Source: a virus. Taken from it: a stretch of DNA of 32,630 nucleotides. Each line of letters opens with the position of its first letter. Position 1 is the stretch's first letter. Shown piece after piece: positions 3,851 to 31,843 of this stretch. A model generated the notes under the pieces. It saw only the letters and a program-made list of their open reading frames with translations, ran no database searches and was not told where the DNA came from. Location: IMG/VR virus record IMGVR_UViG_3300033150_000822, positions 1 to 32,630 of that record, one strand, 5' to 3'. The translations under genes were made by a program, and so were the position numbers.

Positions 3851-4108
3851 TTAATTCTCAAGTTCCCAGACTATGTACACCTCATTCTTACTAACTATTA
3901 TTAAATCTTCTATGTCAGCAAATGCGTTGTACATACCCTTCTCTCTGAAAACAGGGAACTTTTCTTTTAAATAATCCTGTTCCACTACATAAATCAATGT
4001 CGATCCATATACAAAACTCATCTTCTTCTTCTTATCGAGTTCATCCAGCTCACTGTCACTTATTTTTCCTATCTTTATTAAACTTAAGCCAACTTCTTTA
4101 ATTTTCAA
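3851..4108 (-). CDS. Small protein, unknown function
   Basis: This is an 85-residue protein starting MKIKEVGLSLIKIGKIS from a TTG codon at 4106-4108, with GGAGGTG just upstream on the minus strand. A lysine-rich segment (DELDKKKKM) is followed by alternating hydrophobic strands (SFVYGSTLIYVV and DLIIVSKNEVYIVWEL). It shares the TTG start and the same leader form (ATTTAAATGGAGGTGTAAAG-like) with its neighbour at 3651-3836. No function can be assigned. Confidence 0.6.
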   Translation of the reverse strand: MKIKEVGLSLIKIGKISDSELDELDKKKKMSFVYGSTLIYVVEQDYLKEKFPVFREKGMYNAFADIEDLIIVSKNEVYIVWELEN

Positions 4109-4135
4109 CTTAACACCTCCATTTAAATTAGTTTC

Positions 4136-4594
4136 TCATCTTATTTCCCTTATATCTCTTATAAAAGGTTTATTATCAGGATTCCACGCATAATTATTTA
4201 AGAAATCAGGTATTCTCTTCTCTTTCTCCTTAAATGTTTCACGATTTCTCTTATACACCCTCTTTCCTCTTCTATATTTTATTTTCGCAAGCTTTACACA
4301 TAGATAGTAAGTTTTCCCTTGTCTAACAACCATTCCTCTCACTCTCTTCGCATATTTCTCCTTATTCTTTTTAAACTCTTCTTCTTTTACAGCTATCAGA
4401 GTTACAGGCTTTAATTTCTCCTTCTTCTTCTTCTTAAACACACCCTCTTCTTTCCTCTCTCTCTTATAGTCACTCATTATCTCTTTCAGCCGTTTTAAGT
4501 CTTTCTTTTTGTTTTCGATGGTTTTCTCTCTCTTTAATACGTTAATTATCTCTTTATTTAATTCTTTCCTCCGCTCACGGTTATTTTTTATCAC
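4136..4594 (-). CDS. Highly basic protein, possible nucleic-acid binder
   Basis: This is a 152-residue protein dominated by lysine and arginine. It includes an N-terminal coiled-coil-like helix (residues 1-48), a KKKKKEK run near residue 55, and a C-terminal part with RRGKRVYKRNRETFKEKEKR. The middle (KPVTLIAVKEEEF) looks like an alpha/beta core. Such composition suits DNA or RNA binding, but no family is recognised. The start is GTG at 4592-4594. GGAGGTGATAAG directly precedes it on the minus strand, a strong ribosome-binding site. It is the first gene of the operon that runs left to 2356. Confidence 0.6.
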   Translation of the reverse strand: MIKNNRERRKELNKEIINVLKREKTIENKKKDLKRLKEIMSDYKRERKEEGVFKKKKKEKLKPVTLIAVKEEEFKKNKEKYAKRVRGMVVRQGKTYYLCVKLAKIKYRRGKRVYKRNRETFKEKEKRIPDFLNNYAWNPDNKPFIRDIREIR

Positions 4595-5050: not shown

Positions 5051-5084
5051 ATATATCTCCTCCGTTTCATTTTTTCAGCTTAAA

Positions 5085-5117
5085 TTCTTCTTCTTCTTCT
5101 TCTTCTTCTTCTTCTTC
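5085..5117. repeat. (TTC)11 triplet repeat
   Basis: Eleven uninterrupted TTC units (GAA on the minus strand) lie in the probable leader of the gene at 4706-5050, 35-67 bases upstream of its ATG. Homopurine-homopyrimidine triplet runs can form triplex DNA and change in copy number. The repeat also sits at the left edge of the CA/TG-free tract, whose last normal CA is at 5076-5077. Confidence 0.9.
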
Positions 5118-5287
5118 TTTATACCTCTTAATTCTTTTTATAAGCTTTTATATAAGATTTAAACCTTATATTTAAGCTTATCTTAAAGTAAGGTATATAA
5201 GAAGCTTAAAGAAGAGAATTTAAGCCTATATACCGTATTTCCTTATCTCTTATAAGGAATTACTCGTTTTTATCGGTTTCCTTCCGC

Positions 5288-5367
5288 ATAGGGGGTTTTA
5301 AACGCCCCTATTTTCGAAAGGGTCGGTATTTTCGGGGTTTTCCCGAAAACGAAACCTTTAAAAGGTT
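5288..5367. repeat. Three consecutive hairpins in a G/C-rich patch
   Basis: Three stems occur in 80 bases of an otherwise A/T-rich region. They are ATAGGGG (5288-5294) with CCCCTAT (5305-5311), TTTTCGGG (5329-5336) with CCCGAAAA (5342-5349), and AACCTTT (5353-5359) with AAAGGTT (5361-5367). Loops are 10, 5 and 1 bases. The spacing suggests a structured RNA or a DNA structure bound by a replication or regulatory protein. Confidence 0.6.
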
Positions 5368-5851
5368 ATAGGGGTATAAGTATTTATAAGTAATTCTCTT
5401 TTAACTTATATAAATATATCTTAAAATTAAAAAAGACAAAACCCTCCCTTATTTCCCGATTTCTCTTAAAAATACTCTTTAAATCATATTTTAAGCTTAA
5501 ATCTTTCTCTATTCTCGATTTAAAGGAAATTTCCTTAAATTTTAAGTCTATAAACGAAACTTAATTCGATAATAACCGTAATTTTAAATATTAAGAGGTA
5601 TATAAATATACCTTAAACTAAAAGAAGCAAGAATATAGCTTAAAATTAGATTTAAAGCTTTAATTTCCTTTCTTTTTCTAAAATATTCTTTGTAGGAATA
5701 ATTTTAAGTTAAGAATATTCCTATATATCCTTTTAGATAAGAGATAAATAATATAAGTATATTCTAATCCGAAGATTTTTAGGATAAGTTTATAAATATA
5801 TAAGTACATTCTAATATAAGAGCTCTTAACTACTATAAGAAACCTTACTTA

Positions 5852-5927
5852 CTTATATAAGAATCCTTATAAAAGTAAGATCTTACTTTTATAAGCTTTA
5901 TTATAATCCTATATAAGAAATCTTATA
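5852..5927. repeat. Palindrome cluster with a perfect 30-bp palindrome
   Basis: Bases 5866-5895 are perfectly self-complementary over 15 pairs, with outer end CTTATAAAAG and centre TAAGATCTTA. It is flanked by the 10-bp palindrome CTTATATAAG at 5852-5861 and by TATAAGA-AA-TCTTATA at 5912-5927. A spacerless 30-bp palindrome can extrude a cruciform or bind a symmetric dimer. It lies inside the CA/TG-free tract. Confidence 0.85.
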
Positions 5928-6450
5928 AAGCTTTTAAGAAGCGATTTAAGGGTATTTTTTCCGATTAAGGTATAACTCCCTTAACCGTATAAGAAAACGC
6001 CGAGAATCGTTTAAAATAAGCTTAAAATTTAATTTTAAGACTACTCCTTATATAGTAATAATATAACTTACTAAACCGAAAGTAAGCCTAAAATTCTCTC
6101 CTATCTATTTTTAAAGCTTAATTTTCCGAGTAATCGAGGGAAGGAGATTAAATTTAACTCCGAATTATTACTACTATTATACGTAAAACTAATTTTTCGT
6201 TAATCGTACCTTAAGCTTACGTTAATAGACTTAATTTTAAGATATATTAATAAAATACTTATAATTTAAATAACTAAAAGTTATCTCTTTTTAAATTTAA
6301 AGGGAGAAATTACTTTTAAATTTAATTTAAAGGCTAAATTTAAGTCTATTTCCGATTTAAAGGAAAAAACTTAAAATTAACGAAAGCTTTATAAATAGTT
6401 AACTCTTAATTCTATTAGAATAGGTTAAATCCTATTCGGAGGAGATAAAA

Positions 6451-7080
6451 ACGAAAGCGAAAAAAACGGAGCGAGAAAACGGGATTAATCCCGAAATAAC
6501 GAACGAAAATACCCCTAAAGAGATTTTAGGAGGTATAAAAGACGTTAAATCCGTAAAAGAGGCTAAAAAGTTTCTTTTAGAGGATTTATACGATAAATTC
6601 TACCCCGATTTCGAAAATAGAGACTATTTTCGAGATAGAGCGGATTTACTCGGGGGAGACGTATTAGAAGAGGTTTTCCTTTTCTTAAGTAAGTCTAAAA
6701 TACCGATAGAGGAATTAGATTACTTTATAGGGAATTTAAGCGAGAGGATACACGCCGATTCGATATACGAGTACGAAAACCTCGTTAAAATCCTTTCGAG
6801 AGCTATAAAGGGGTTCGTTTTTAAAAAGGAGAGAAAATATCTCCTTTTAAACTCTTTAGAAAATAAATTAATAAAGAATTACGGAAAGAACCCCGAAACG
6901 GGAGTTTATAAGCTTATAACTCCCGAAGAAGCTTTAGAAACGGTTAAGGAGGCTTTAGAAAGGTTAGATTACGAGGAGATAGCTATTAAGGAGTTTATAG
7001 TAAGAATAACTCCCGAAATAGCCTCCTATAAGAGATTAGACGTCTATAAGGTTTTAAAAGTAGTAAAGGAGGCGATTTAA
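6451..7080 (+). CDS. Unknown protein with a predicted ACG start, gene 1 of the CA/TG-free operon
   Basis: This is a 209-residue frame with no stop codon. GGAGGAG (6438-6444) lies six bases before ACG at 6451, exactly where ATG would be expected. The frame is open only from 6424 and contains no ATG, GTG or TTG at all, so initiation must use a non-NTG codon; ACG is the best placed. The protein is normal-looking and charged (for example DLYDKFYPDFENRDYF, then EALERLDYEEIAIKEFIVRI near the C terminus), probably helical. It has no Met, Cys, Gln or Trp and one His (codon at 6751, one of the few CA steps). Arginine is mostly AGA or AGG (8 of 10). No family is recognised. It is followed without gap by the gene at 7081. 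Confidence 0.7.
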   Translation, partial: TKAKKTERENGINPEITNENTPKEILGGIKDVKSVKEAKKFLLEDLYDKFYPDFENRDYFRDRADLLGGDVLEEVFLFLSKSKIPIEELDYFIGNLSERIHADSIYEYENLVKILSRAIKGFVFKKERKYLLLNSLENKLIKNYGKNPETGVYKLITPEEALETVKEALERLDYEEIAIKEFIVRITPEIASYKRLDVYKVLKVVKEAI

Positions 7081-7275
7081 ACGTTTAAACTTTCTTTAGA
7101 AGAAAAAGAACGATTAGATAGGCTAAGGAGGGTAAAACTACCCTCTATTTCTATTTCGGAGGAAGAATTTTTCCTTATTTCCGAAATAGAGGAAGAAATC
7201 GAGCTTAAAAGGATATACGAAGATACCCCTATCCTTAATATAGATATAGAGGATAGGTATAGGAGGAATAGATAA
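7081..7275 (+). CDS. Unknown small acidic protein with a predicted ACG start, gene 2 of the CA/TG-free operon
   Basis: This is a 64-residue frame that starts immediately after the TAA of the previous gene. GGAGG (7068-7072) lies eight bases before ACG at 7081, the same arrangement as gene 1. No NTG codon exists in the frame. The product is mixed-charge, with a run of acidic residues in the middle (SEEEFFLISEIEEEIELKR) and an arginine-rich end (EDRYRRNR), likely helical. It contains no Met, Cys, His, Gln or Trp. It ends 15 bases before the ATG of gene 3. Function is unknown; the tight spacing points to a shared complex or pathway with its neighbours. Confidence 0.6.
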   Translation, partial: TFKLSLEEKERLDRLRRVKLPSISISEEEFFLISEIEEEIELKRIYEDTPILNIDIEDRYRRNR

Positions 7276-7290
7276 ACGGAGGCGAAAAAT

Positions 7291-7695
7291 ATGTTTAAAG
7301 AGACCGAAAAACTTAATATAGAGAATTTAAGAAGATTAGAGGAAATTAAATCCGAGTTAAGAGAATTTAACGAGGAAAACGAGGTTAATTTCCTTATACT
7401 CGGATTAAATATCGGGAAAGAGGGAAAGACTAACGTTATAAGTCTCTCTTCCGATATAGAGAAACTTTTTATTCCTAAAAAGGGAATAGGAAGCGAAAAC
7501 GAGAGATCGGAGGAGTTCGATAGATTAGAGCGTGCCGTTTTCGATTTTAACGAAAAATTCGGGTCGGATTACGTTTTAATCTCCGAATTTTTTATTAAAG
7601 AGGAAGATAAGGTTTTTAAAACCTTAAAGGAGGAAATAAAAGACTTAAATAAGAGATTAAGGGAATATAGTAACTTATTTAAGTCTAAACCTTAA
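7291..7695 (+). CDS. Unknown coiled-coil-like protein, gene 3 of the CA/TG-free operon
   Basis: This is a 134-residue protein beginning MFKETEKLNIENLRRLEEIK. Unlike its two upstream neighbours it has a regular ATG at 7291, preceded by GGAGG at 7278-7282. That ATG supplies one of only four TG steps in the whole tract. The N-terminal and C-terminal thirds look like long charged helices (LRRLEEIKSELREFNEE and KTLKEEIKDLNKRLREYS), consistent with coiled coil. The middle has strand-like segments (NFLILGLNIG, TNVISLSS). It contains no Cys, His, Gln or Trp and no internal Met. No family is recognised. Confidence 0.75.
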   Translation: MFKETEKLNIENLRRLEEIKSELREFNEENEVNFLILGLNIGKEGKTNVISLSSDIEKLFIPKKGIGSENERSEEFDRLERAVFDFNEKFGSDYVLISEFFIKEEDKVFKTLKEEIKDLNKRLREYSNLFKSKP

Positions 7696-8363
7696 TTTCT
7701 CTTTATTTTTCCTTTCTTTTCTTATTTAAACCCGAATTTTAATATTTTTCTATTAAAAATCTAAAATTCTCCCTTTTAAGATATATAAATCCCTCTAAAG
7801 AAGCTTGAAATATATATTAACGTATATTTAAGCTCCTAAACCTAAAAGAAGCCTAAATATCCGAGATTTATATATCTTAACGCAAATTAGAGGCTATTTT
7901 CCCCTCCTTTTCTCTATATCTAACTAAAATCTCCCTTATTCCTTTTTTAAAGCCTATTCCTACCTTTATTTTCTATTTAAAGGCTATTCTTCCCTTTATA
8001 GAATAAATAAAAGGGGTATAGCTCTTCTATGCTAGCCTGTCCTCCGTAAAAATGTCAGCTTTCAAAATCTTAATATAAGTAACCACTAATATACTAATAC
8101 GTTATATCAATATACACAACCCCTTTTTAATATTATAGTTATATATAAGAACTAACTAATATACTAATATACTAATACCCTAGAATATCAATATACTCGA
8201 AATCCTCCAAAAAAGAGTTCCCTCTTAAGTAAATACTAATATACTAATATGTCGAGGAGAAAAAAGGAAAACCAGCAATTTGTATAAGTCCAAAGATTGT
8301 CTAACAAAGCCTCTCCTATGAGAATTTGTAACGAATCAATTTATCAGGATGTTAGAAGTTCCT
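7696..8363. other. Intergenic region: end of the CA/TG-free tract, then iteron-like repeats
   Basis: Bases 7696-8029 continue the CA/TG-free composition, are pyrimidine-rich just after the operon stop (CTTTATTTTTCCTTTC near 7701) and could end its transcript. Normal composition resumes abruptly at 8030. Bases 8085-8250 hold three blocks of ACTAATAT repeats. No gene is visible on either strand. Confidence 0.5.
8085..8250. repeat. Iteron-like ACTAATAT repeat blocks
   Basis: Three blocks of tandem ACTAATAT octamers start at 8085 (2 units), 8155 (3 units) and 8235 (2 units), spaced 70 and 80 bases apart. The first two blocks end in ACTAATAC and are each followed within ten bases by the same 12-mer, ATATCAATATAC (8104-8115 and 8185-8196). 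Regularly spaced iterons next to a structured A/T-rich region are typical of replication origins or of operators for a multimeric repressor. No encoded initiator is recognised here. Confidence 0.7.
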
Positions 8364-11015: not shown

Positions 11016-12359
11016 ATGAAATTAAGTTTAGAATTAAGGAAACGAAATGAACAGATCATACAGAAGTTGAAAGCTGTGAAGAAGATAAATGTAAATTTAA
11101 GAAGGCCTAGAACTCCTAGAATCCCACATATGTCTATTCCTAAAGTTGACATACCAGATTTCAATATATCAATGCCCTCAGCTTCCCCTGAACTCTATGA
11201 CGTAAAACTCACTGATGATTACAATCCTAAAACAGTATCTGATGCCTTTGATATTGCCTGGGAAAGAACAGATAAGTTCTCTACATGGTACAATATATAC
11301 GAGCAAGAGGCTTTGGTTAGAGCTTGTATTGATACACTTGCGTATTTCGCAACATGTAAGGGATATTTCGTAACAACTGACAACCCCATTAAACAAGAAG
11401 CACTCGATGAGATAAATATGATGAATTATAAAATCAACATTGAGACATCTATGGGAATCGGGGTCAGAAGAATGTACATATATGGAGTATCCCCATTTGA
11501 GAAAGCTAGGAATAAGAAGGGGAACATCAGGAAGCTTATACCTCTTGATCCAGCAAAGCTCGAACCCACAATTGGTAAAAAACATAACATCGAGAAGTAT
11601 GTGTACAACAGCAATATAGAGTTGAGGCCAGAAGACGTTCTCTTACTGGTCAACAATCCATTAGAGAAACCATATGAGGGCTTCTCTAAAATACATCCAA
11701 TTGAAAATGCTGTGTTACTTAAGCGTCATCTCGAACATGACATCAAAGAAGCTGCACTCCGTCTTTGGGCTCCAGCAGCACATATTCAGCTTGATACAAC
11801 TGGTCTAACTCCCACACAGGAAAGACTTGCTATACAAAAGTTTATAAACAATCTAATCCCTGGGAAGTCTCTGGTCACAAATAAAAGTGTAGACTACAGT
11901 AAAATTGATGTCCGACCCGATATGGTTGCATTGGTCAAAACATGGGAAGCAACAAATGAAGAAATAATTGGAAACTTCGGTGTACCAAAAGCACTTCTTG
12001 CGAGAGAAAAAACAATGAATAGAGCCACTCTCGAATACAGCATAAAAGCAATGTATGAGGGTGTAATCAGAGGCTTACAGACATACTTAGGTAGAGAAAT
12101 TGAAAGTCAACTTTATCAAGACGTCCTAGAGAGATACGGGATTAAAGATGAAATCGTCACACATAATTGGAAACCATTTGAGAAGGAAGACTTAGCGAGA
12201 CTCGCAAACGCTGTTTGTGCTCTGTATGAAGATGAGATAATTGATAAGTTCAAATCATGGGAGCTTTTAGCTCTCGGTTCTTATAGTCCTCATAAAATCA
12301 AAGAGGCAGACGATAAGAAATATGAAGAGTCTGATTCAATAAGAGAAGTGATTAAATGA
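11016..12359 (+). CDS. Portal protein
   Basis: About 447 residues, directly after the large terminase. The N-terminal 60 residues are basic and proline-rich (RRPRTPRIPHMSIPK). The core follows the usual portal pattern: an ACIDTLAYFATCKGYFV helix, LIPLDPAKLEP, and late in the protein FGVPKALLAREKTMNRATLE, a motif found in many portals just before the C-terminal wing. Twelve copies would form the ring through which DNA is packaged and to which the neck attaches. The start is ATG 11016 with GGTGTGA in front; GTG 11010 is also in frame. The stop overlaps the next gene in an ATGA arrangement. Confidence 0.85.
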   Translation: MKLSLELRKRNEQIIQKLKAVKKINVNLRRPRTPRIPHMSIPKVDIPDFNISMPSASPELYDVKLTDDYNPKTVSDAFDIAWERTDKFSTWYNIYEQEALVRACIDTLAYFATCKGYFVTTDNPIKQEALDEINMMNYKINIETSMGIGVRRMYIYGVSPFEKARNKKGNIRKLIPLDPAKLEPTIGKKHNIEKYVYNSNIELRPEDVLLLVNNPLEKPYEGFSKIHPIENAVLLKRHLEHDIKEAALRLWAPAAHIQLDTTGLTPTQERLAIQKFINNLIPGKSLVTNKSVDYSKIDVRPDMVALVKTWEATNEEIIGNFGVPKALLAREKTMNRATLEYSIKAMYEGVIRGLQTYLGREIESQLYQDVLERYGIKDEIVTHNWKPFEKEDLARLANAVCALYEDEIIDKFKSWELLALGSYSPHKIKEADDKKYEESDSIREVIK

Positions 12360-15300
12360 AGAGTGAGAATGTTATAGAAATTAAGAATGTAGAAGATTTT
12401 GAGAAACTCCGAGTGTACAATCTCCATAAAGATGATAATATAAAAGAACTAGATGATAAAAGGCTCATTGCAGCCCACTTTGAAGTACATAGAGCATGGA
12501 CTCTCTTCAAAAAGTTTGGGAAATTTGGAGATTGGACAAAGAAGGAACTTATAGAATACCACAATAAGGTTGTGAAGGAAATGGCTTCCAGGAACATGAA
12601 ACATGAAAGTCCTCTCCTAGCAGAAAAGATAGCTATCATCAAAGACACAAGATTCGCTAGATGTTCAGAATTTGAGATAAATGGTCAAATATTCGAGAAT
12701 CCCTGTAAAGACGAGGGAGCAAATGCTGCAGCATGCTTCGTTAATTTCCTGAAGACAAAAGGCGTCACGAAGGTCAAAGCTCCAAATATTGGTCCAAATG
12801 CTCAAAGATTTCTAGAAGAGGGAAACATTACAATCGAACATCTCTCTTATGCTCCTGTGAAATCTAAGGGGGAACAAAACCTCCCAAAGATAACTCTTGA
12901 GGATTTCTTATCTAAAATTCAATCATTCTGTATTTCCAACCCCTCAGTTATCCTCACAGGCTCTATTGTCAATGAGGGATATACGACAGGGGACATTGAT
13001 ATACTGATAAGGGGAAAAGAGAATGATCCTACAGTTCAGAAGACTATGTTTAGAATAATCAGAATGTTCGATAAGGACACACAGAAGAGGCTCCACTTCT
13101 TATTTGTAGATGATTTGTCTGGTCCATTCACTTCATTTGTTCCGCTCTACAAACAAGTTGTCGAGAAAACAGACTTAGAAAAGGTCGAGATGTCCGATTT
13201 CTCATTCATTCCTCCTCTAAAGGCTGGGAGAAGATCAGAGAGGGAGCTTTTCAAGACTGATGAAATTCAAAAAGACATACCAGAAGACAAATTCCCTCTC
13301 ATAGTCCAGCTCAAATATGATGGATTACGTGGCCAAATACATAAACAGAACAGCAAAGTCACAATTTACTCTGATGATGGGAAAAACATAACAGACTCTC
13401 TTCGAAAAATAGCAGAAGAGGTCAGAAACCTCAATGAAGACAATTTCATTCTAGACTGTGAAATAGAGCAATGGAAAGATGGTAGGCATATTGGTCGTGA
13501 GGTAATTGCTGGTAGGACACATCAGAAAACTCCATTCGACGATACAGGTACAGTAGCATCTCTTTTCGATGTTATGGTTTGGAAAGGAAAGTACATACTG
13601 AAAGAACCATATGAACAAAGATTTAATCATCTCTATGAATTAAATATCAAACAATCTGAAATGTATTTCTCTAAGACTCCGGAGAAATCTCTCAACATAG
13701 CACCTAGTATAAAAGTGAACAATTACTCTGATCTCAGGAAAGCTATAGTCAAGTGTTTCTCTCAAAAATACTCTGAAGGTGCTATGATCAAACAAGCAAG
13801 TTCCATTTATGAGAAAGATGGAATCACAATGAATTGGTGGAAGGTTAAAAAATATGCGGAAGTCCATGCTATAGTTACCAAGCGTGTCGAAACGAAAACA
13901 CCTAATGTCTACACTTATCATCTTGGTCTCTCAATTCCAACTAAGTTTGAGAAAGAAATTAAGGAGAAAGTATCTATAAATAATAAAGAATATATAGAAA
14001 CTGGGAAATGCTTCAATTCGAAAAAGAAACTCAAGATCGGAGACATTGTTACAGTCAAATTCCATACCTTATTCACATACTCTAATGGGACGTTTTCCCT
14101 CAAATTATACGAGCCTAAAATCATGGAGCATAGACCTCTAGAGAAAGAGCCAGACGACATATACGAGGCTGTCCTTATCGCTAAAAAAGCTGGGCTCCTA
14201 CAAACTAAGGAACGTCTGACCGAAGAGGACATACAATCCTTATCTTCAGCCGTCCAGACACTAATATTTGATAAGAAGAAATTTACGAAACAGAAAGCCA
14301 TCGCCTGGGCAAAGTCTCATAACTTCAAATTCAATAATGTCGAAGAAACCCCTAATTTCTGGAGGCTCAGACAATTTGAACCAGACTTATGTAAGAGGGC
14401 TGGTGGACTCAAAGAATTTGACGATGGAGTAAGAGCGTACATTTGTGTTACACAGCTTTCTTCCGAAGAAGAGAAACAATTGTATGATTTAAAAGTATCT
14501 GATTTATCTGAAGATAAAAAATGGGGAGCGTATCTAGGCTCACATTATCGTGGAAAATCTGGTCATCTTGATCTCAGACTAGAACGGGAAGACGATTGCT
14601 GTGGCTGGACTCTCTTTGCATTCCCTGAGGGTGCAATAAAAGAAGATGTTACAACAGTTAAGCAAGCAAAAGAATTAGATAAGAAGATCGACATAAAGTT
14701 CAAGCCCACATACACTGAAACGAAGACACAATGTACACCCAAAGCCCCCGAACCTAAAGAGTGGATGGGATATGAAAAAGCAGTTCCTCCTGGTGAAGTG
14801 GGTGCTACGAAACATGAATGGGGTGTCTTCACAGACTTCGATCACGGGACAGTCGAATATCTCTGCTCCAAACCATATTTCTACGAATACTATTTCCATA
14901 TGAAACGATATAAGGGAATCTTCTATTTCAGACAGCTTGAAAATGTTTGGAAAGAGAAAACACAACCAGGGAGATTCGTCTGGTTTGCCTGGAAAGCTAA
15001 GACTGATGAACCTTATGTTCTCACGAAACGTTCAATCACTTCTAATTACCATACTCATAAGGGACAATCCGAACTACCAAGGCATGTCAGAAAACAGATT
15101 CCCGAGCAATACAGATATTGGGAGAAACCCAATTCTTTTGAAGTCAGGAAAGCTTTGATCGAAGCAATCAAAAAGAAGGAAGTAAAGATAAGATTTGAGC
15201 TCTCTGAAGAAGAAGAGTCTACACATAGCGAACTTACCAAAGGCAAATATGCCCTTGTACATCACTGGTGGAAAGGACAGACTGTCGTCCGTGAGGGTCC

Positions 15301-16084
15301 AACAACAGAACATTATGATTTGTATATCAAGACTCCAGATAGAGAAAAACTCCTACACTATATATTAGTTAAGAATCCTCTTAAAACTCACGTCTCCTCA
15401 GCTCTCATTGCCGAACCTGTAGGAGATAAGTATTTGACAATTGGCAAGGGTAAGCCAGTCGAGATAGCTCCAGGACAACCAGATAATCCCACAAAGAACA
15501 CACCAGCTTATTTAGAGCAGGTCGCTTCTGGAGAAGTCACGATTTTTGAAGATAAAGAACTCTTCAAGAAATTTAAGTTCGAAAAACTCGGAACATGGAT
15601 CTTTGTAAGAGAACAGAAGACAAATATGTGGACAGCATCAAAAGCGGAGAATCTATCGGAGGAAAAAAAAGTAGAATTATCAGAAGTCAATGCAGCACAT
15701 GTTTTACTTTCTTTCGGCAAAGATGTAGCTCTCTCCCCAGGTGTTTGGAACGGATTCTATTATCCTCCAGAAGTTATCCATAAGGTTGCAAATCTTGTCG
15801 ATGGTTGTCCTATTGACGTCGAACACAATGGGCGAAAAGTAGGGAAAGTTCTGTCTCATAAAATGTCTGGGGATGATTTAATAATAAATCCGCTCATAAC
15901 AGAAGAAAAGATTAAAGAGGATTACGATAAAGGAAAATATTGTTGGTCAATGGATTTCACATTAATGGTCGATAAAATCAGGAGGATAGTCAAAGATGTT
16001 AAGAAGGTATTCTTTGCCTCTCTAGTTGAGAACCCAGCATGTAAGGTTTGTACAACAGCTACTAAAAAATGTGAGCACGTATGA
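12356..16084 (+). CDS. Giant multidomain protein: nucleotidyltransferase-like, ATP-dependent ligase, LigD phosphoesterase-like and prohead-protease-like parts
   Basis: 1242 residues in one frame. In order: 201-218 TGSIVNEGYTTGDIDILI, the GS..DxD signature of polymerase-beta-type nucleotidyltransferases; 320-325 KYDGLR, ligase motif I with the adenylated Lys, then LDCE (366-369), LFDVMVW (403-409), EGAMIK (474-479) and WWKVKK (494-499), a complete ATP-dependent ligase set; an OB-like part to about 595; a segment at 640-700 with FWRLRQFEPDLC and FDDGVRAY; 729-742 SHYRGKSGHLDLRL and 966-991 with TEHYDLYIK, two LigD 3'-phosphoesterase-like units; and from 1124 an XkdF or S78-like protease part with His in DVEHNG (1157) and Ser in YCWSMDF (1198). 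Its place between portal and scaffold is where the prohead protease belongs. Whether the ligase works in DNA repair, end processing or only structurally is unknown. Confidence 0.8.
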   Translation: MKSENVIEIKNVEDFEKLRVYNLHKDDNIKELDDKRLIAAHFEVHRAWTLFKKFGKFGDWTKKELIEYHNKVVKEMASRNMKHESPLLAEKIAIIKDTRFARCSEFEINGQIFENPCKDEGANAAACFVNFLKTKGVTKVKAPNIGPNAQRFLEEGNITIEHLSYAPVKSKGEQNLPKITLEDFLSKIQSFCISNPSVILTGSIVNEGYTTGDIDILIRGKENDPTVQKTMFRIIRMFDKDTQKRLHFLFVDDLSGPFTSFVPLYKQVVEKTDLEKVEMSDFSFIPPLKAGRRSERELFKTDEIQKDIPEDKFPLIVQLKYDGLRGQIHKQNSKVTIYSDDGKNITDSLRKIAEEVRNLNEDNFILDCEIEQWKDGRHIGREVIAGRTHQKTPFDDTGTVASLFDVMVWKGKYILKEPYEQRFNHLYELNIKQSEMYFSKTPEKSLNIAPSIKVNNYSDLRKAIVKCFSQKYSEGAMIKQASSIYEKDGITMNWWKVKKYAEVHAIVTKRVETKTPNVYTYHLGLSIPTKFEKEIKEKVSINNKEYIETGKCFNSKKKLKIGDIVTVKFHTLFTYSNGTFSLKLYEPKIMEHRPLEKEPDDIYEAVLIAKKAGLLQTKERLTEEDIQSLSSAVQTLIFDKKKFTKQKAIAWAKSHNFKFNNVEETPNFWRLRQFEPDLCKRAGGLKEFDDGVRAYICVTQLSSEEEKQLYDLKVSDLSEDKKWGAYLGSHYRGKSGHLDLRLEREDDCCGWTLFAFPEGAIKEDVTTVKQAKELDKKIDIKFKPTYTETKTQCTPKAPEPKEWMGYEKAVPPGEVGATKHEWGVFTDFDHGTVEYLCSKPYFYEYYFHMKRYKGIFYFRQLENVWKEKTQPGRFVWFAWKAKTDEPYVLTKRSITSNYHTHKGQSELPRHVRKQIPEQYRYWEKPNSFEVRKALIEAIKKKEVKIRFELSEEEESTHSELTKGKYALVHHWWKGQTVVREGPTTEHYDLYIKTPDREKLLHYILVKNPLKTHVSSALIAEPVGDKYLTIGKGKPVEIAPGQPDNPTKNTPAYLEQVASGEVTIFEDKELFKKFKFEKLGTWIFVREQKTNMWTASKAENLSEEKKVELSEVNAAHVLLSFGKDVALSPGVWNGFYYPPEVIHKVANLVDGCPIDVEHNGRKVGKVLSHKMSGDDLIINPLITEEKIKEDYDKGKYCWSMDFTLMVDKIRRIVKDVKKVFFASLVENPACKVCTTATKKCEHV

Positions 16085-19613: not shown

Positions 19614-19785
19614 TATGAACATCAAGAAAAATGCCGAACAAGACGCACTCATAGCAAAAAACACTAACTTTCGGATGGTATCTAATGCGATCAAGAGTGA
19701 GAGCGATAGAAAGACCGTACTTACCGCTACCATCATAGCTACTTTAGTCGCTTCCCTGGTCAATGTGTTTGTGAATCTTTTATGA
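19561..19785 (+). CDS. Frame with C-terminal membrane helix, possibly the second half of a frameshifted gene
   Basis: Up to 74 residues if started at ATG 19561, but no Shine-Dalgarno sequence precedes any of its ATGs (19561, 19597, 19615). Residues about 18-50 are a charged helix (MNIKKNAEQDALIAKNTNFR). The last 22 are a membrane helix ending the protein (VLTATIIATLVASLVNVFVN). Coiled coil plus terminal anchor resembles XhlA-type lysis-accessory proteins or a membrane-attached virion protein. Its frame is +1 relative to the frame at 19479. The stop overlaps the next gene (ATGA). Confidence 0.5.
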   Translation: MLRSGLRSEFRAMNGKVNMNIKKNAEQDALIAKNTNFRMVSNAIKSESDRKTVLTATIIATLVASLVNVFVNLL

Positions 19786-20162
19786 TAACAAATGAGGAAG
19801 TACAAAGACTGGTCAAAGAGTTAGACCTTTCAGACGAGGATACCGAAGCATTCATCAATGACGCCGAAGACTTTCTAGGAGTAGATGAGAAGACACAGAG
19901 TACACTTTGGGATAGGGCAGTAAAATATTATGCTGCCTATCTCGCATTTATTTCATCGGACTTATACAAAAGTGTAAGAGTTGGAGATATAGCAGTTACA
20001 CGAGCAGTTGAATTTAAAGCAAACAATCTAAAGAAACTAGCTGAAGATGCAATTAAAGAAATCGATCCCACATTCGGAGGCATCATAGTAGACAGTACAT
20101 ATATGATAGATAAGAGCAGACCAGACTTCGTCGAGGGTGGTGTGGAGGACTGGTACACATGA
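19782..20162 (+). CDS. Probable head-tail connector (head completion) protein
   Basis: 126 residues, acidic N terminus with short helices (NEEVQRLVKELDLSDEDTEA), then LWDRAVKYYAAYLAFISSDL. This fits the small helical connector proteins (gp6 or gp15-like) that bind the portal. It is followed by the gpG-like and head-closure-like genes, the usual order for neck components. Start ATG 19782 overlaps the upstream stop. No exact family call is possible by eye; the assignment is mainly by order and helical style. Confidence 0.55.
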   Translation: MITNEEVQRLVKELDLSDEDTEAFINDAEDFLGVDEKTQSTLWDRAVKYYAAYLAFISSDLYKSVRVGDIAVTRAVEFKANNLKKLAEDAIKEIDPTFGGIIVDSTYMIDKSRPDFVEGGVEDWYT

Positions 20163-20701
20163 CATACGCACAAGGGATCAACGTTACGATCATACGTAGA
20201 GATTACACTAAAGTTGCCGTTAAAGCTCTCGATGACGGTGCGAAAGATGCTATTAAGGGAATCACAGATTTCATGTACGAGAAGCTGAGGAGCTACTTTG
20301 AAGCAGGAGGAACAGAAGCTGGCCCATGGGAGAGGACAGTTTTACCAACTGGACAGCCCCCATTAGGTGGGATAACTGGATCAATCTTCAGGTCAATAGA
20401 AGTAAAGAAAGTTGGGGATAAATCTTACGAATTATCTGTTACACATCCATACGCTGCAGTTCATGAATATGGGTTCTTTATAAAAGTTCCGGGAGCAGGA
20501 GTTGAACACATCCCTCCTATGATTTACAAACTCTGGAAGCTCGGATATACGTTAACATCGCCATCAAAACCATTTGTGCGAATACCCGCTAGACCATTCT
20601 TTGAGCCGGCGGTTGCGGCCACGAGAGTAGCATTTCCACAAGTTGCTAGGAGTTATATAAGAAAAGAACTCATGAATAATCTTAGGACATGTAGTGTTTA
20701 A
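20159..20701 (+). CDS. Tail completion or neck protein (HK97 gp10 / Mu gpG-like)
   Basis: 180 residues. The signature is clear: an N-terminal helix (GAKDAIKGITDFMYEKLRSY), a central segment with GPWERTV and GGITGSIFRSI, then the conserved YAAVHEYGFFI and near the end FVRIPARPFFEPAV. These are the hallmark motifs of the gp10/gpG family that joins the tail to the head-completion complex. Start ATG 20159 overlaps the previous stop. The gene ends with TAA immediately before the next ATG. Confidence 0.75.
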   Translation: MTYAQGINVTIIRRDYTKVAVKALDDGAKDAIKGITDFMYEKLRSYFEAGGTEAGPWERTVLPTGQPPLGGITGSIFRSIEVKKVGDKSYELSVTHPYAAVHEYGFFIKVPGAGVEHIPPMIYKLWKLGYTLTSPSKPFVRIPARPFFEPAVAATRVAFPQVARSYIRKELMNNLRTCSV

Positions 20702-21034
20702 ATGAAAATCAATTTATGGGAAGCAATAAAAACATTCTCGAAAGAAATTACAATTCAGAATAAACTGGAGGGCTCTATAGTTGATGGTTATTATGAGCCA
20801 AAATACTCAGTGTTTAAAATAAAAGGAGTTATCGCACATAGAAATACAGACATTTGGTCTCCACAGATACCTGGTATACAGGATCTAGGTGAGATAAGAT
20901 TGTACACGAATCAAGATCTTGCTATTGGAGCCATTATAGATGAAAAATTGAAAGTTATTTTCAAGCAAGACTATCATGACTTGTTTGGAGTTTACATATA
21001 TCGATTGGAGGAAAGCAAAGCAAAAACTGCTTAG
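20702..21034 (+). CDS. Probable head-closure or neck protein
   Basis: 110 residues, mostly beta strands (YSVFKIKGVIAHRNTDIW, IRLYTNQDLAIG, LKVIFKQDYHDLFGVYIY). Small beta-barrel proteins at this place usually form the head-tail stopper or adaptor that closes the capsid after packaging. The ATG directly abuts the stop of the preceding gene. No sharp family motif is seen. Confidence 0.5.
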   Translation: MKINLWEAIKTFSKEITIQNKLEGSIVDGYYEPKYSVFKIKGVIAHRNTDIWSPQIPGIQDLGEIRLYTNQDLAIGAIIDEKLKVIFKQDYHDLFGVYIYRLEESKAKTA

Positions 21035-21080
21035 CAGGACAATCGTTTAGCCTTATGAGAGAACCTCAAGAGGTGTTACC

Positions 21081-21848
21081 ATGAGCCTATCTGAAGAACA
21101 GAAAAAATTAATAATACAAAATATTCCTTCTACTTTTACGATAGAGAATAAAACAATAAAAGCCTCCGTACTGTATGCTAACCAGATGACAGAAGCTCTA
21201 TATCCTTCTATTACTCTTCTCTACGATACAATAGGAGGAAAGATATATAGACCACCTCATAATAGATTAGCAAAGGATTACGAGTACTCTACAAACTCTT
21301 CTGAGACATTTACCGCCACATCCGATTATACGTATGAGAATCTCTTATCTACTGCGGATATTTCAGATGTCTCTATCGAAGGAATTGTGGGCGGATTACC
21401 GCATACGTTTGCCGAGTCCGAATACAGTATAGATCATTCGTCCATAACTTTCATAGGAGTCAAGCCTGATGAAGGAACAGATTTTACAGTCTCTTACACT
21501 GAATATAACCATCTATTAAGATTAGGAGCATTTGTTTATGATCTCATCATCATAGATGTTCATTGCGATAAAAGACATAATGGAGTCAATGGGAGTAAAG
21601 TGGCCTCACATATGGCTCAGAGAGTTCGTGATTGGTTTGCATACGAATTACAAGATTTATTTGAAGAAAATAATGAGAATCTCGTTGTTCTTGACGTGAG
21701 CGATGAGATAAAAAATTTAGACGAGCTCATTCAGTCATTTATGTACCCTAGAAGGAACTTTAGTGCTACGATAGCGAATCTAGAATATGTGGATGTTATC
21801 AAGCCGAGACTTCTAGAGACTGAATATGAGACAGAAGTTGCTATTTAG
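21081..21848 (+). CDS. Probable tail terminator or tail-completion protein
   Basis: 255 residues, upstream of the sheath gene as tail terminators usually are. The middle (residues about 70-145) is strand-rich and could be an inserted beta domain. The C-terminal half has RVRDWFAYELQDLFEENNEN, then LVVLDVSDEIKNLDELIQ and YPRRNFSATI, resembling the alpha/beta core of terminator proteins. GAGGTG precedes the ATG. It is longer than typical terminators, consistent with an insertion. Assignment is inferred from order and secondary-structure impression. Confidence 0.5.
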   Translation: MSLSEEQKKLIIQNIPSTFTIENKTIKASVLYANQMTEALYPSITLLYDTIGGKIYRPPHNRLAKDYEYSTNSSETFTATSDYTYENLLSTADISDVSIEGIVGGLPHTFAESEYSIDHSSITFIGVKPDEGTDFTVSYTEYNHLLRLGAFVYDLIIIDVHCDKRHNGVNGSKVASHMAQRVRDWFAYELQDLFEENNENLVVLDVSDEIKNLDELIQSFMYPRRNFSATIANLEYVDVIKPRLLETEYETEVAI

Positions 21849-21858
21849 CAACTAAGTG

Positions 21859-21868
21859 TATATATAAA
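21859..21868 (+). promoter_or_regulatory. Possible TATA box before the sheath gene
   Basis: TATATATAAA lies about 25 bases upstream of the sheath ATG, in the 41-base gap after the previous stop. GAGGTGA lies between them, so a start at that distance would remove the ribosome-binding site; the match may only reflect A/T-richness. Confidence 0.3.
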
Positions 21869-21889
21869 ATATAAAGAGGTGAAAAAGAA

Positions 21890-23443
21890 ATGCCAGTAGA
21901 AGCAGTAATAATTGATACCACCATAAGTGCGGTGGGAACTAGATTGAGAGAATATGGAAACCCTTGTATAGTGGCAAAAGACGGTTACGCAACAGAAACA
22001 TTCGACGCACCAGGAGCCAGCGGGAAGAAGACATTCGAGATGTCTCAAACATTTACTGATGTCAAGCAGGTGTACCTGGGGGACACAGAATACGTACTCG
22101 ACTCTTCAAACGACTATCCCGCAACACCAGATCCAGGAAAGTACAACTATAGCACTGCGGAACAAGAAATTGTATGTAATGTTGCTGACGGAGATAAAGC
22201 GAAGACACCTAACCTACAAACATACTGCTACAATAAAGTATTAGAGTTCTCGACCATAGCAGCCGTTGAGGATCAGTTTGGATCAGGCACAGACATAGCA
22301 GATGCTGCTGAGATGATCTTTACGCAACAAGTCAAGACACTCTGGATAGTAAGAGCGGAAATAAAGACCGTAACAGACGAAGCTGCAGCAGACGTAGATG
22401 ATGTAACAATGACTCTAGCACATGTACCCCCATGTGGCGAAACATTGCCTACAATAAAGGGAGACGGAGTATCAGCCACAGTAAAATGGGATCCACTATG
22501 TGCCTCAGATCATTTACCTTCAGCTGCATCAGGAGAAGCTTGGGTGAATCCAATAACGGGATATGTGGGAATAGATGCCAATATGATATCTGGAACCGGA
22601 GCAGGACTAGTAGTATCATCCTACACATACATCGATTGGGCTGCAGTAAATACCGCCATAAGCAACGAGGATATAAATATTGTTGTTTTGGCAGACACAC
22701 CAACTGCCGATGCGCATCTTGGTGATTTAGATAAACTTATAGGATATTGTGATAGCAATAATTGGATTATGCCTATCATGTCCAATGCTACAACAGCAGC
22801 AAATATTATAACGCAATTCAATTACTTGACAGATTCTAGAAATGTTATGGGAATAGCTACTACACAAACCGATGATGATATAGCAGCATGTGGAGCAGGA
22901 CTTCTTGCAAACCTTAAACCTTGGGATAATGTCATGTGGCAAAGACTACACGGTCTATCTATGCAGACATATTTCACAACAGAGGAAGTCGAGTCTACGC
23001 TTGAAGGTTCTGAAGCAAATCCCGTGAATGCTGTTATACGAAAAATCGACACTGATGTTATGTCCAATGGTTTAACAACAGTTGGAGGAGATTACAAATA
23101 CATAGATATAACTAGGACAAAATATTATCTCGAAGATTTGATACGGGATAGACTTACAACACTTCTCATGGGAACGAAGCTAACATATGAGAAGAAAGCA
23201 CTTGCTGTGGTCGCTTCAACAATCCGATCTGCTTGTGAAGAAGCTGTTCATGCTACAGCCCTAAGAGAGCCTTGGTACGATGAAGCTGGAGACCTCCATA
23301 CAGGATATATTGTGGAAATGCCAGCATTCGAAGACATACCCACAGCTGATAGAGTGAATAGGGTTCTTAGGAATGTCTTTGTCACTGCATATCTCGCAGG
23401 ACACATACAAGAGATCCGCCTGAACCTTCTGATTACAATCTGA
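21890..23443 (+). CDS. Tail sheath protein
   Basis: 517 residues, a usual sheath length. The C-terminal third carries the typical sheath pattern: ITRTKYYLEDLIRDRLTTLL, a long helix, then GYIVEMPAFEDIPTADRVN and RVLRNVFVTAYLAGHIQEIR leading to the final strand LNLLITI that links to the next subunit. The N-terminal half is beta-rich (VKQVYLGDTEYVLD). The sheath contracts around the tube to drive it through the cell envelope, and this gene is the main evidence that the virus is a myovirus. GAGGTGA precedes the ATG. The tube gene follows, as expected. Confidence 0.85.
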   Translation: MPVEAVIIDTTISAVGTRLREYGNPCIVAKDGYATETFDAPGASGKKTFEMSQTFTDVKQVYLGDTEYVLDSSNDYPATPDPGKYNYSTAEQEIVCNVADGDKAKTPNLQTYCYNKVLEFSTIAAVEDQFGSGTDIADAAEMIFTQQVKTLWIVRAEIKTVTDEAAADVDDVTMTLAHVPPCGETLPTIKGDGVSATVKWDPLCASDHLPSAASGEAWVNPITGYVGIDANMISGTGAGLVVSSYTYIDWAAVNTAISNEDINIVVLADTPTADAHLGDLDKLIGYCDSNNWIMPIMSNATTAANIITQFNYLTDSRNVMGIATTQTDDDIAACGAGLLANLKPWDNVMWQRLHGLSMQTYFTTEEVESTLEGSEANPVNAVIRKIDTDVMSNGLTTVGGDYKYIDITRTKYYLEDLIRDRLTTLLMGTKLTYEKKALAVVASTIRSACEEAVHATALREPWYDEAGDLHTGYIVEMPAFEDIPTADRVNRVLRNVFVTAYLAGHIQEIRLNLLITI

Positions 23444-23459
23444 AGGTTTCACAAAAGAT

Positions 23460-23468
23460 AAATATAAG
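23460..23468 (+). promoter_or_regulatory. Possible TATA box before the tail tube gene
   Basis: AAATATAAG lies in the 58-base gap, with an expected transcript start (about 23488) just before GGTGAT (23491-23496) and the ATG at 23502. This is the same short-leader design as the scaffold promoter at 16797. An extra promoter would suit a highly expressed tube protein. Confidence 0.4.
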
Positions 23469-23501
23469 AAGAAATAGATAGATATTAGAAGGTGATATGA
23501 A

Positions 23502-23930
23502 ATGGCAGTTACTGAACCAACAGTCTATGATATAAGAGATATAGATTGCTACGTAGGAGATAGATTACTGACACAATACGCTACTGGAGGAATTAGTGTT
23601 GCTCCATCAGCAGAAGATACCTTAATAAAAGGGCTTAAAGGTGAGGTTGGATTTAACATAGATCCATCATCCGCTGCAGAAATTACTATAGTCTTAAAGT
23701 CCACGTCTCCAGAAGTAGCTTATCTCAGTTCCCTATGGAGTGGACAAATGAACGCACATACTGTTACGAAAATCAGAATAGTGTCTGTATCTCCAGATGC
23801 TACAGGATTTTCTGAGATAGTCTTAGAATATGCTATGCTTGCTTCACCGCCTACAAAAGCTACAAACGAAAAAGAATCGCCTGATTACAGCTTTCGTTTC
23901 ATAGGGTATGGATACAGGGAAGAAAGTTGA
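23502..23930 (+). CDS. Tail tube protein
   Basis: 142 residues directly after the sheath. Mostly beta strands with few helices: YDIRDIDCYVGDRLLTQY, then a strand pair with VGFNIDPSSAAEITIVLKS and, near the end, SEIVLEYAMLASPP and YSFRFIGYGYRE, like the Mu gpM / DUF3277 class of tubes found in contractile tails. Hexamers stack to make the inner tube. GGTGAT precedes the ATG. Confidence 0.75.
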   Translation: MAVTEPTVYDIRDIDCYVGDRLLTQYATGGISVAPSAEDTLIKGLKGEVGFNIDPSSAAEITIVLKSTSPEVAYLSSLWSGQMNAHTVTKIRIVSVSPDATGFSEIVLEYAMLASPPTKATNEKESPDYSFRFIGYGYREES

Positions 23931-23964
23931 GTCTAGGCTAAATTAAAAGGAGGTGTTTTTATTT

Positions 23965-24276
23965 ATGTCGAAAGTAGAATACAATCCAGAAGAAACAAGA
24001 GAGATAGATGTCTTTGGAGAGAAACATGTAATTAAGTCTATGTGTGGTATGGATTACATGGATCTCATAGGCAAATGCTCGGATCTACAAGGAAAAGTCG
24101 ATAGGAGAAAATATACACAGCTACTATTTAGACAATGTATAGTTTCCCCTAAGAGAGACCCATCGAAGTACAGTGCACCAGCAGCTCTTCTTCTATTCTC
24201 TGAAATTGAGAACATGTTAGGAGTCGCTGAGCTGATGCAAAAAAACTTGCTGAAGATTCCAGGAGCGAAAGAATAA
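23965..24276 (+). CDS. Tail assembly chaperone, short form
   Basis: 103 residues from ATG 23965, with GGAGG 11 bases upstream; GTG 23953 is in frame but overlaps that site. It sits between the tube and tape-measure genes, where tail assembly chaperones lie. The protein starts with strands (REIDVFGEKHVIKSMCGMDY) followed by helices (RRKYTQLLFRQCIV). Near its end the in-frame codons CAA AAA AAC create A_AAA_AAC, and the -1 frame is open for another 73 codons. Short and long forms together coat the tape measure during tail assembly in lambda-like systems. Confidence 0.8.
   Translation: MSKVEYNPEETREIDVFGEKHVIKSMCGMDYMDLIGKCSDLQGKVDRRKYTQLLFRQCIVSPKRDPSKYSAPAALLLFSEIENMLGVAELMQKNLLKIPGAKE
24240..24246 (+). 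promoter_or_regulatory. Slippery heptamer A_AAA_AAC for -1 frameshifting
   Basis: The heptamer lies in the correct frame (CA[A AAA AAC]) 30 bases before the short-form stop. It is a classic X_XXY_YYZ site, at the place where dsDNA phages use frameshifting for tail chaperones. No strong downstream pseudoknot is obvious by eye. Confidence 0.85.
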
Positions 24277-24467
24277 TCTACGACATTGCAGCAGAATTTG
24301 GTTTAGACCCACGTTCTGTGGGTAAATGGGATATAAAAGACATCTGGAAAGCATCACATTATTTGATAGAAAAGTATAAGCCTATTAAGAGAAAAATCGA
24401 TGAGGCTGAGAGGGAGCTTCGGCAAGTTTCTCCTGGAAGACCTGTCCCCAAATACATATTCAGGTGA
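24246..24467 (+). CDS. Tail assembly chaperone, frameshift extension (long form C terminus)
   Basis: After a -1 shift at 24246 the frame reads LAEDSRSERIIYDIAAEFGL and continues without stop to TGA at 24465-24467, adding 73 residues for a product of about 167. The extension has no start codon or ribosome-binding site of its own but is clearly protein-like, with RSVGKWDIKDIWKASHYLIE and a helical tail. This matches the G/GT arrangement, in which the extension recruits the tail tube. Its stop overlaps the ribosome-binding site of the tape-measure gene. Confidence 0.85.
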   Translation, partial: LAEDSRSERIIYDIAAEFGLDPRSVGKWDIKDIWKASHYLIEKYKPIKRKIDEAERELRQVSPGRPVPKYIFR

Positions 24468-24473
24468 TACATT

Positions 24474-26696
24474 TTGGCTTTTGAAATAGCGTCTTTCATA
24501 GTTAGGTTTGGTCTAGAGGGATTAGAGAAATCTCTCCAGGGAGTGAATATGATAGGTAGCTCCATGGAGACTGCTGTTAAAGCTGGTCAGGGTTTGAGAT
24601 CAGCTGCGCTTTATACAGGTTTCGCACTCTGGACTGTCGGAGCTCAAGCGAAGAGAGTGGCAGGCATTATCAACAAAACCTGGATGGGGGCAATAAAGAC
24701 ATATGCGGAATTTGAATATGGGCAAAAGAGAGTAGCAATTATCTCTGGAGCTTCTGCTGCACAAACTAGACTTTTGGCTGAGGAAACTATAGCTCTCGGT
24801 AGAGCAACAGAATGGACAACAACACAAATTACTGCAGCGGAAAAAATTCTAGCCATGGCTGGATTCACTGTTAATGAAATCCTCACAGCCACCCCCGAAA
24901 TCCTATCTCTCGCTACAATCGGATTAATCAATACAGAAGAGGCAGCGAAGATTGCAGCAGAAGCATTGAAGGGATTTGGTCTAGAAGCTGAGTCCCTCAC
25001 CTTCGTTGTCTCGTCTATGGCTTATGCGATCACACATTCTCTAGCAACAATCCAATCTCTAGGAACAGCATTCCCATATGTGTCCGCAGTTGCTGAGGAA
25101 TTTAACTGGACTATACAATCTGTTACTGCTTCCCTCATGATCATGACGGATGCAGGTATAGAAGGTTCTAAAGCAGGAATGGCCATGAGGACTGGAGCAC
25201 TCAGGTTGGCGAAGGCTGTCGGTATCCTATCTGGAGAAGCCATGAGTGCGGAAAAAGTCATAAAGAAATATGGTTTCACATTTACTGATGCATATGGAAC
25301 TATGCTTCCAATTCCCGACATAATAGATGAACTTGTTGATAAACTAGGGCATCTATCAAATGCTGAGAGAATGGCTGCGCTTCAGGCTCTCTTCGGGACT
25401 AGATATGCTGCAGCCTGGTCTAAACTTATGGCAGAAGGTGGGGACGATCTGAGGAAGCAGGCTGAGAACATGGAAATGGTCGCTGTTCGACAACTCCTCA
25501 TAAACAAAGGATACACTGACACTACTAAAGCCTTGGATTTTCTTAGAAGACAAATGAAGGCTGGTATAGATGTTACGCAATACTTTATCAACACTTGGGG
25601 TGCTGCTCCAGAAGTCGCAGAAGCAATGAATAAAATTCTAACAGCAACCTCCGAGAAATACGAAGAGTATGTAAAAGCTGTTGAGAATGCTCAGACACAG
25701 ACTGAAATGCAAATAAAACAGATAAAGTCTCTAACTGGCTTCTTGAAGCTTATTAAGTCTGATTTAGAAGCCATAAATGTTCTTTTCGGGGAACAATTAG
25801 CACCGACACTTCAAACGCTTGCAAAAGCATTCAGAACTGTCTTTGGCTGGATAATAGGGATGCCACCTGGTTTGAAAAAGACCCTTATCATGATAGGTCT
25901 ACTCGCAGGGAGTCTTCTAGCTCTGATAGCTGCAGCCACTGCTCTCATAGCACCTGTATTTCTACTGATTTCGTCTCTCGCCATCTACACGATGCAAGCA
26001 GCTGGGGCAGCGGGTATCACTGTTTTGTTGGGTAAAAGTTGGATAATGTTAAAGTTGGTGTTTTGGCATCTCCTACCTGTCATGGCTGCCATTTCTGCTG
26101 CTCTCGTCGTAGCGATTGGCTTGTTTGTGTTTTGGACAACTGTTATTGATGAGATTAACAAAAGATTTGGAAAAGCTGCTGCGGCAATAACAGCTCTAAT
26201 TGCAGTTATTTCCAGTGCACTCATACTCGCAAAGATAATTACACTAGTGAAGGCTTTCACAGCAGCCCTCGTTGCAAACAAGATAGCAGCATTAGATTTA
26301 GCAATAGCTCATGAAGCACTTGCTGGTGCTGAAGCATTGTCTAGTGGTGCTGCGGCTACCGGTACAGCTGTTCGCTCTGGGGGATTGCTAGCAAGACTTG
26401 GTCTAGGCGGAGTGTCACTAGGAGGTTTAGCCTCCACTCTCGGAGCTATAGCAGCAGTGATCACAGTAGCAGTGCCTGTTGCGTATGGTCTAGCTAAATT
26501 AATGATTTGGGCCAAAGAGAAAATATTTGGTGGAGAAGGTGGATTTCGTGGGTATATGTTAAGGAGAGAATTTGAGAAGGCGGAGAGGATTAGGGAGGAG
26601 AGAGGTATCACGATAGACGTTCACAACAATGTAGTCAAGAGTGACAGAGACCTAGCAGACCTTATAAGGCGTGAGTTTGAGAGGTCGATTGGATGA
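24474..26696 (+). CDS. Tail tape measure protein
   Basis: 740 residues, the longest tail gene. The N-terminal 370 residues match the phage tape-measure core: EFEYGQKRVAIISGASAAQT, EETIALGRATEWTTTQITAA, ETLAMAGF-like repeats (KILAMAGFTVNEILTATPEI), SIQSVTASLMIMTDAGIEGS-like and ALFGTRYAAAWSKL. Hydrophobic segments at about 463-550 and 590-660 would insert into the host membrane during DNA delivery. By the usual scaling of about 1.5 angstrom per residue, the tail would be near 110 nm. The start is TTG 24474 with GGTGAT five bases upstream. The stop overlaps the next ATG. Confidence 0.9.
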   Translation: MAFEIASFIVRFGLEGLEKSLQGVNMIGSSMETAVKAGQGLRSAALYTGFALWTVGAQAKRVAGIINKTWMGAIKTYAEFEYGQKRVAIISGASAAQTRLLAEETIALGRATEWTTTQITAAEKILAMAGFTVNEILTATPEILSLATIGLINTEEAAKIAAEALKGFGLEAESLTFVVSSMAYAITHSLATIQSLGTAFPYVSAVAEEFNWTIQSVTASLMIMTDAGIEGSKAGMAMRTGALRLAKAVGILSGEAMSAEKVIKKYGFTFTDAYGTMLPIPDIIDELVDKLGHLSNAERMAALQALFGTRYAAAWSKLMAEGGDDLRKQAENMEMVAVRQLLINKGYTDTTKALDFLRRQMKAGIDVTQYFINTWGAAPEVAEAMNKILTATSEKYEEYVKAVENAQTQTEMQIKQIKSLTGFLKLIKSDLEAINVLFGEQLAPTLQTLAKAFRTVFGWIIGMPPGLKKTLIMIGLLAGSLLALIAAATALIAPVFLLISSLAIYTMQAAGAAGITVLLGKSWIMLKLVFWHLLPVMAAISAALVVAIGLFVFWTTVIDEINKRFGKAAAAITALIAVISSALILAKIITLVKAFTAALVANKIAALDLAIAHEALAGAEALSSGAAATGTAVRSGGLLARLGLGGVSLGGLASTLGAIAAVITVAVPVAYGLAKLMIWAKEKIFGGEGGFRGYMLRREFEKAERIREERGITIDVHNNVVKSDRDLADLIRREFERSIG

Positions 26697-28578: not shown

Positions 28579-28582
28579 TAAC

Positions 28583-29215: not shown

Positions 29216-29220
29216 TGAAT

Positions 29221-31131: not shown

Positions 31132-31132
31132 A

Positions 31133-31146
31133 TTTTGTTTTTTTTT
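31133..31146 (+). terminator. T-run terminator at the end of the virion operon
   Basis: TTTTGTTTTTTTTTT follows the stop of the last virion gene by one base. Archaeal transcription commonly ends in such T-runs without a hairpin. The next gene begins about 90 bases later. Confidence 0.6.
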
Positions 31147-31154
31147 AAACCCAT

Positions 31155-31193: not shown

Positions 31194-31238
31194 TTTACTC
31201 AAGAGAGGCAATACAATGCTTCTCCGGAGGTGTTTTAA

Positions 31239-31838: not shown

Positions 31839-31843
31839 TACAA

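Follow-up and report, generated by a model that had tools for sequence, protein, structure and literature searches.

ACG starts of eukaryotes and their viruses, such as that of the Sendai virus P/C mRNA, place in the initiator position a codon which is one base off AUG and is expected to be weak, and this also appears to be the situation of two genes of the viral DNA described here. The difference is that here a prokaryotic-type Shine-Dalgarno (SD) sequence is present, two consecutive genes are concerned, and a ban on CA/TG at the DNA level would explain the ACG. In E. coli reporters, ACG works at roughly 0.1-1.5% of ATG (PMC6925171), and no natural case of a prokaryotic ACG start was found in the literature searched. 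Genomic ACG at the start is likewise seen in plastid start-codon C-to-U editing, where ACG-to-AUG conversion has been described for chloroplasts (PMC9845219). In contrast, no editing machinery is seen in the present window, for which blanket editing is excluded. As regards the ban itself, restriction-site avoidance is known in phage DNA, for instance in the first-entering segment of phage T5, and resembles our case in the local loss of sequence words from one segment of a virus genome, whereas our segment loses a whole dinucleotide instead of a 4-8 bp site, in its coding as well as its noncoding parts. Repeat-induced point mutation (RIP, CpA to TpA) also depletes CA/TG on both strands, but it is fungal and needs duplication, and our segment fails its GC and start-codon predictions. 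No precedent for a strict ban on one dinucleotide limited to one genome segment was found in the literature.

The window, that is, the whole stretch of DNA analysed, corresponds to one IMG/VR virus record, a contig of 32,630 bases (32.6 kb), and encodes a large terminase (TerL), portal, 1,242-aa ligase fusion, major head protein, tail sheath, tape measure and baseplate J. Judged by its encoded proteins, it comes from a tailed virus whose relatives include archaeal myoviruses (ANMV-1, haloarchaeal viruses) and whose host is presumably archaeal. The ligase is homologous to that of the ANMV-1 virus and its relatives, which are archaeal tailed viruses (about 30% identity), the sheath resembles a Halobacterium phage sheath, and the baseplate resembles those of haloarchaeal viruses, among others; TerL could be related to that of ANMV-1 by a forced alignment, at 20% only. 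Besides its ATP-dependent DNA ligase domain, the ligase fusion (12356-16084) has an N-terminus resembling pyrimidine-dimer glycosylases and a region that weakly matches nucleotidyltransferases. The closest contigs were G017 (IMGVR_UViG_3300005098_000006), which has TerL, portal, capsid, sheath (66% identical) and tail genes in common with the window and is syntenic with it from position 9075 rightwards, and G020 (IMGVR_UViG_3300033156_000289), which shares its right half (91.7% DNA identity over 19729-32630). Synteny of the terminase/structural module was strong with both G017 and contig G012. Since G020 also extends 31 kb further right, the window probably represents only part of a virus genome whose full length is some 63 kb or more. 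A minus-strand cluster in G020 (L108:5901-9966) carries RlaP-like nucleotidyltransferase, PylC-like ATP-grasp, epimerase, PHP and PIG-L deacetylase domains. The search for proviruses through TerL or sheath in genome contigs gave none.

The CA/TG-depleted segment of the window was delimited by a maximal-scoring segment and the dinucleotide profile at 5077-8030 (2,954 bp, no strand assigned), where only 4 TG and 7 CA remain, versus about 149 and about 153 expected from the composition of the tract. The depletion is strand-symmetric, and the tract borders, which are sharp at 100-bp resolution between normal flanks, fall in intergenic DNA with no evident join. The earlier proposal that TG is forbidden thus stands as a near-absolute CA/TG ban, but only over some 3 kb of the contig. 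In fact, the longest run free of both dinucleotides reaches 944 bp in the tract, whereas the other loci examined, 102 in number (1.35 Mb, relatives included), show no such run above 147 bp. The noncoding stretches 5077-6437 (5 CA and 1 TG) and 7696-8030 (one of each) are depleted, and so are the genes. Moreover, at the codon-codon junctions of the tract genes T|G occurs once versus 35 expected and C|A not at all versus 25.5 expected, while the other genes show 867 versus 787 and 493 versus 415, respectively. As the loss affects coding and noncoding DNA as well as codon junctions, it must act on DNA (or RNA) and not on protein composition. The local ban is a larger surprise than the ACG starts.

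A CA/TG-free tract was seen in none of the examined sequences of ANMV-1 and the other relatives; since this segment lies outside the parts shared with G017 and G020, the tract rests on one contig. DNA similar to it was sought in phages and plasmids with chance matches only, the pattern GGAGGCGATNTAAACG gave 35 chance matches in viral contigs, none of them within a CA/TG-free tract, and the left-neighbour gene of the tract had no counterpart in viral contigs. Several other features of the region were recorded. At the left border lies a (TTC) x 11.7 tandem repeat (5085-5119), and just left of the tract, in 4001-4500, where the genes are on the minus strand, the plus strand is poor in TG (3 found) although not in CA. 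Just right of the tract, an iteron-like repeat around ACTAATATACTAATA occurs three times within 8076-8252. The noncoding part contains a 30-bp perfect palindrome, CTTATAAAAGTAAGATCTTACTTTTATAAG (5866-5895, no strand assigned), a length reached in 0 of 300 simulations, which is possibly an origin or regulator site; together with the cumulative GC-skew minimum at 6287, also within the tract, it would suit an origin or switch region, although the skew also follows gene direction.

Three plus-strand genes occupy the right part of the tract: ORF1 (6451-7080), ORF2 (7081-7275) and ORF3 (7291-7695, 134 aa from ATG). As the sequence-only reading had it, the frames of the first two contain no ATG, GTG or TTG, so that neither yields an ORF under those starts, and both are open for the lengths claimed, their translations from ACG comprising 209 and 64 aa (stop-to-stop frames 6424-7080 and 7081-7275). 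The three genes look real on the evidence of their open frames, periodicity, TATA box and SDs. A run of 209 stop-free codons arose in 0 of 400 simulations under each of four Markov models, built on the first- and second-order statistics of the tract itself or of the operon itself, and the tract DNA is very rich in TAA. Codon positions show G enriched at the first and A at the second, with normal R-N-Y periodicity, and the use of the permitted synonymous codons is fitted better by the virus left-arm genes than by the right arm or by uniform use. The 407 residues of the three proteins include no Cys, Gln or Trp, one His and one Met. A single-sequence AlphaFold2 model of the mostly helical ORF1 product had a mean pLDDT of 65, its C-terminal ~80 residues being helical and mostly at 78-93 without an alignment, whereas ORF3 was poorly predicted. 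Homologues of ORF1 and ORF3 were found neither in viral contigs nor in plasmids, nor those of ORF1 in phages; ORF1-3 gave no match in Pfam and PHROGs, and the fold search with ORF1 gave none below E 0.5. A marginal PDB sequence match of ORF1 to NEQ263 (E 0.006) was not accepted as homology.

Upstream of this operon, an exact match to a TATA-box-like element, TTTATAAAT (6388-6396, plus strand), which is a putative archaeal-type promoter element, lies about 26 bp 5' of the start of a perfect 7-bp inverted repeat, GAATAGG-TTAAAT-CCTATTC (6418-6437, plus strand; hairpin z about -2.1). This repeat, the only exact copy in the window, adjoins the SD of ORF1 and may be an operator or a 5'-UTR hairpin. 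The plus-strand SDs are GGAGGAG for ORF1 (6438-6444; GGAGG 6438-6442) and GGAGGCGA for both ORF2 (7068-7075; GGAGG 7068-7072) and ORF3 (7278-7285; GGAGG 7278-7282). The ACG codons at 6451 and 7081 each begin 8 nt past the end of GGAGG; the spacing of six and eight bases claimed earlier was right for ORF2, while for ORF1 six is obtained only when counted from GGAGGAG. The third gene does keep a normal ATG, at 7291 and at the same 8 nt, and this codon carries one of the four TG left in the tract; where a TG is important, it thus seems to be allowed to stay. Among the 10 plus-strand GGAGG of the tract, the triplet 8 nt on is ACG for those at 6438, 7068 and 6529 and ATG for that at 7278; the ACG following 6529 is out of frame and presumably due to chance. 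ACG makes up 1.2% of the triplets of the tract, so that its occurrence at a given position in both genes has a chance probability of ~1.4e-4, a post hoc figure. In ORF2, nothing separates the ACG from the preceding stop codon, and ATA, ATT and ATC are all lacking nearby. A further plus-strand ACG (7276-7278), directly 3' of the ORF2 stop, in the ORF3 frame and 9 nt past GGAGG 7262-7266, is a possible second start of ORF3. The SDs themselves appear altered: GGAGGCGA in two of the three tract SDs stands against GGAGGTGA elsewhere in the contig, where the other genes have GGAGGTG. Comparison of the ORF2 SD-start region, GGAGGCGATTTAAACG, with those of other contig genes (GGAGGTGTTTAAATG, GGAGGTGATAAGGTG, GGAGGAGATTTAAATG) indicates that CG has taken the place of TG, as it seems, in the SD extension as well as in the start codon.

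The reading we favour, with moderate confidence, is that ORF1 and ORF2 would be real virus genes started at ACG, imposed by the local CA/TG ban. A force on the 3-kb segment would strip it of almost all CA/TG, the TG within ATG among them, leaving ACG at the first two genes of a three-gene operon. A strong SD at the standard distance would then position the ribosome so that initiator Met-tRNA is weakly accepted on ACG despite the middle-base mismatch, and, since the ORF2 ACG touches the ORF1 stop codon, termination-reinitiation may also feed ORF2. Output would be low for ORF1 and ORF2 and highest for ORF3 with its ATG. That the two frames are translated, start at ACG, are weakly expressed and once had ATG is what we infer from the DNA. 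No virus-encoded tRNA able to read ACG was found in the window or its relatives. The idea that start codons were reshaped by a dinucleotide ban is partly supported, by the ban, the coding-like frames, the ACG at the canonical position and the TG-to-CG look of two of the three SDs; its weak side is the ancestry from ATG, as the searches brought up no ORF1 or ORF3 homologue in which ATG/ACG variation could be compared across relatives. The description of ACG as the simplest non-NTG start is half true, as single changes removing TG from ATG also give ATA, ATT, ATC, AAG and AGG. Against the ACG starts speak their poor performance in E. coli reporters (PMC6925171) and the fact that ATA and similar codons are equally easy escapes. 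Moreover, the ATG kept in ORF3 means that the ban can be overridden, so ORF1 and ORF2 could be little needed or started otherwise.

That ORF1 and ORF2 are translated from another codon (ATA 6445 for ORF1, TTT 7084 or other for ORF2), or only via coupling or frameshift, is the alternative which best withstands the data, although we regard it as unlikely. ATA starts outdo ACG in some bacterial reporters, and the TAA-ACG junction of ORF1 and ORF2 suits reinitiation; nevertheless, ATA 6445 abuts the SD with zero spacing, ORF2 offers no other near-cognate codon at a workable distance, and the spacing of both ACG equals that of the ORF3 ATG. It is quite improbable that the segment is decaying, with ORF1 and ORF2 having lost their starts and being no longer translated: two of the three starts are missing, homologues are lacking and ORF3 has kept its ATG, but frames of 209 and 64 codons have stayed open with codon periodicity in very TAA-rich DNA, and the SDs and their spacing are kept.

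The origin of the ban, as distinct from the start site, could be a RIP- or deaminase-like one-way CA-to-TA hypermutation, for which the CA/TG loss, a hallmark of RIP, and the frequent TA would speak; we give this little credence. Converting CA/TG to TA in the neighbouring noncoding DNA predicts a GC of 0.18, versus 0.25 observed in the noncoding tract, and in genes (left-arm proxy) 0.25, versus 0.34 in the coding tract, these proxies being imperfect as they are neighbouring regions and not ancestors. Such conversion would also give ATA starts and GGAGGTAA, not ACG and GGAGGCGA; there is no duplicated partner in the record, 6438-7700 having no second copy, and the likelihood is poorer than for simple CA/TG removal. 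A RIP-like origin was rejected on this GC and likelihood mismatch. In the noncoding part, the neighbour Markov chain minus CA/TG fits better than C-to-T or A-to-G conversion, and an A-to-T rule somewhat better than plain removal, while in the coding part removal and an equal mix of the two transitions perform about equally well. The tract therefore resembles the virus's own neighbouring DNA with CA/TG struck out, which speaks for an ongoing purge, through selection or through mutations that lead away from CA/TG in more than one direction, rather than for one-way base conversion. Our guess is that purging occurs because the segment sits in a special state, being first to enter the cell or an origin region, exposed to a CA/TG-reading enzyme.

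Site-specific C-to-U editing of the mRNA, restoring AUG so that the ribosome uses a normal start, has a slender probability: the change converts exactly ACG into AUG, but no editing factor is seen here and we know of none for such a case. Blanket CG-to-UG editing is excluded, because three in-frame CGA of the tract genes would turn into UGA. The faintest of the alternatives, that a chemically changed base or an assembly or sequencing artefact removed TG/CA so that the sequence misreports the native DNA, draws on the tract being on a single contig, no other contig spanning it having been found, and is opposed by the long open frames, the composition, which differs from the neighbourhood after C-to-T or A-to-G conversion, the codon use and SDs matching the virus, and the intergenic borders without evident join. 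A reading of all CG as misread TG was rejected, since in-frame CGA codons would be TGA.

Returning to starts imposed by the ban, a broader interpretation can be put forward tentatively, and with some doubt. The virus may keep a 3-kb segment nearly free of one dinucleotide on both strands, by a force that strips Met, Gln, His, Cys and Trp almost entirely from three proteins and forces ACG starts and altered SDs upon two genes; this would represent an undescribed defence or replication constraint recognising CA/TG, together with natural prokaryotic ACG initiation, which is not established in the literature searched. Tracing the ban to its cause would lead to an enzyme, a defence or a replication step that reads CA/TG and is as yet undescribed, and the ban with its ACG starts would constitute a natural experiment on how far a forbidden two-letter word can bend start codons, SD sites and the use of amino acids.
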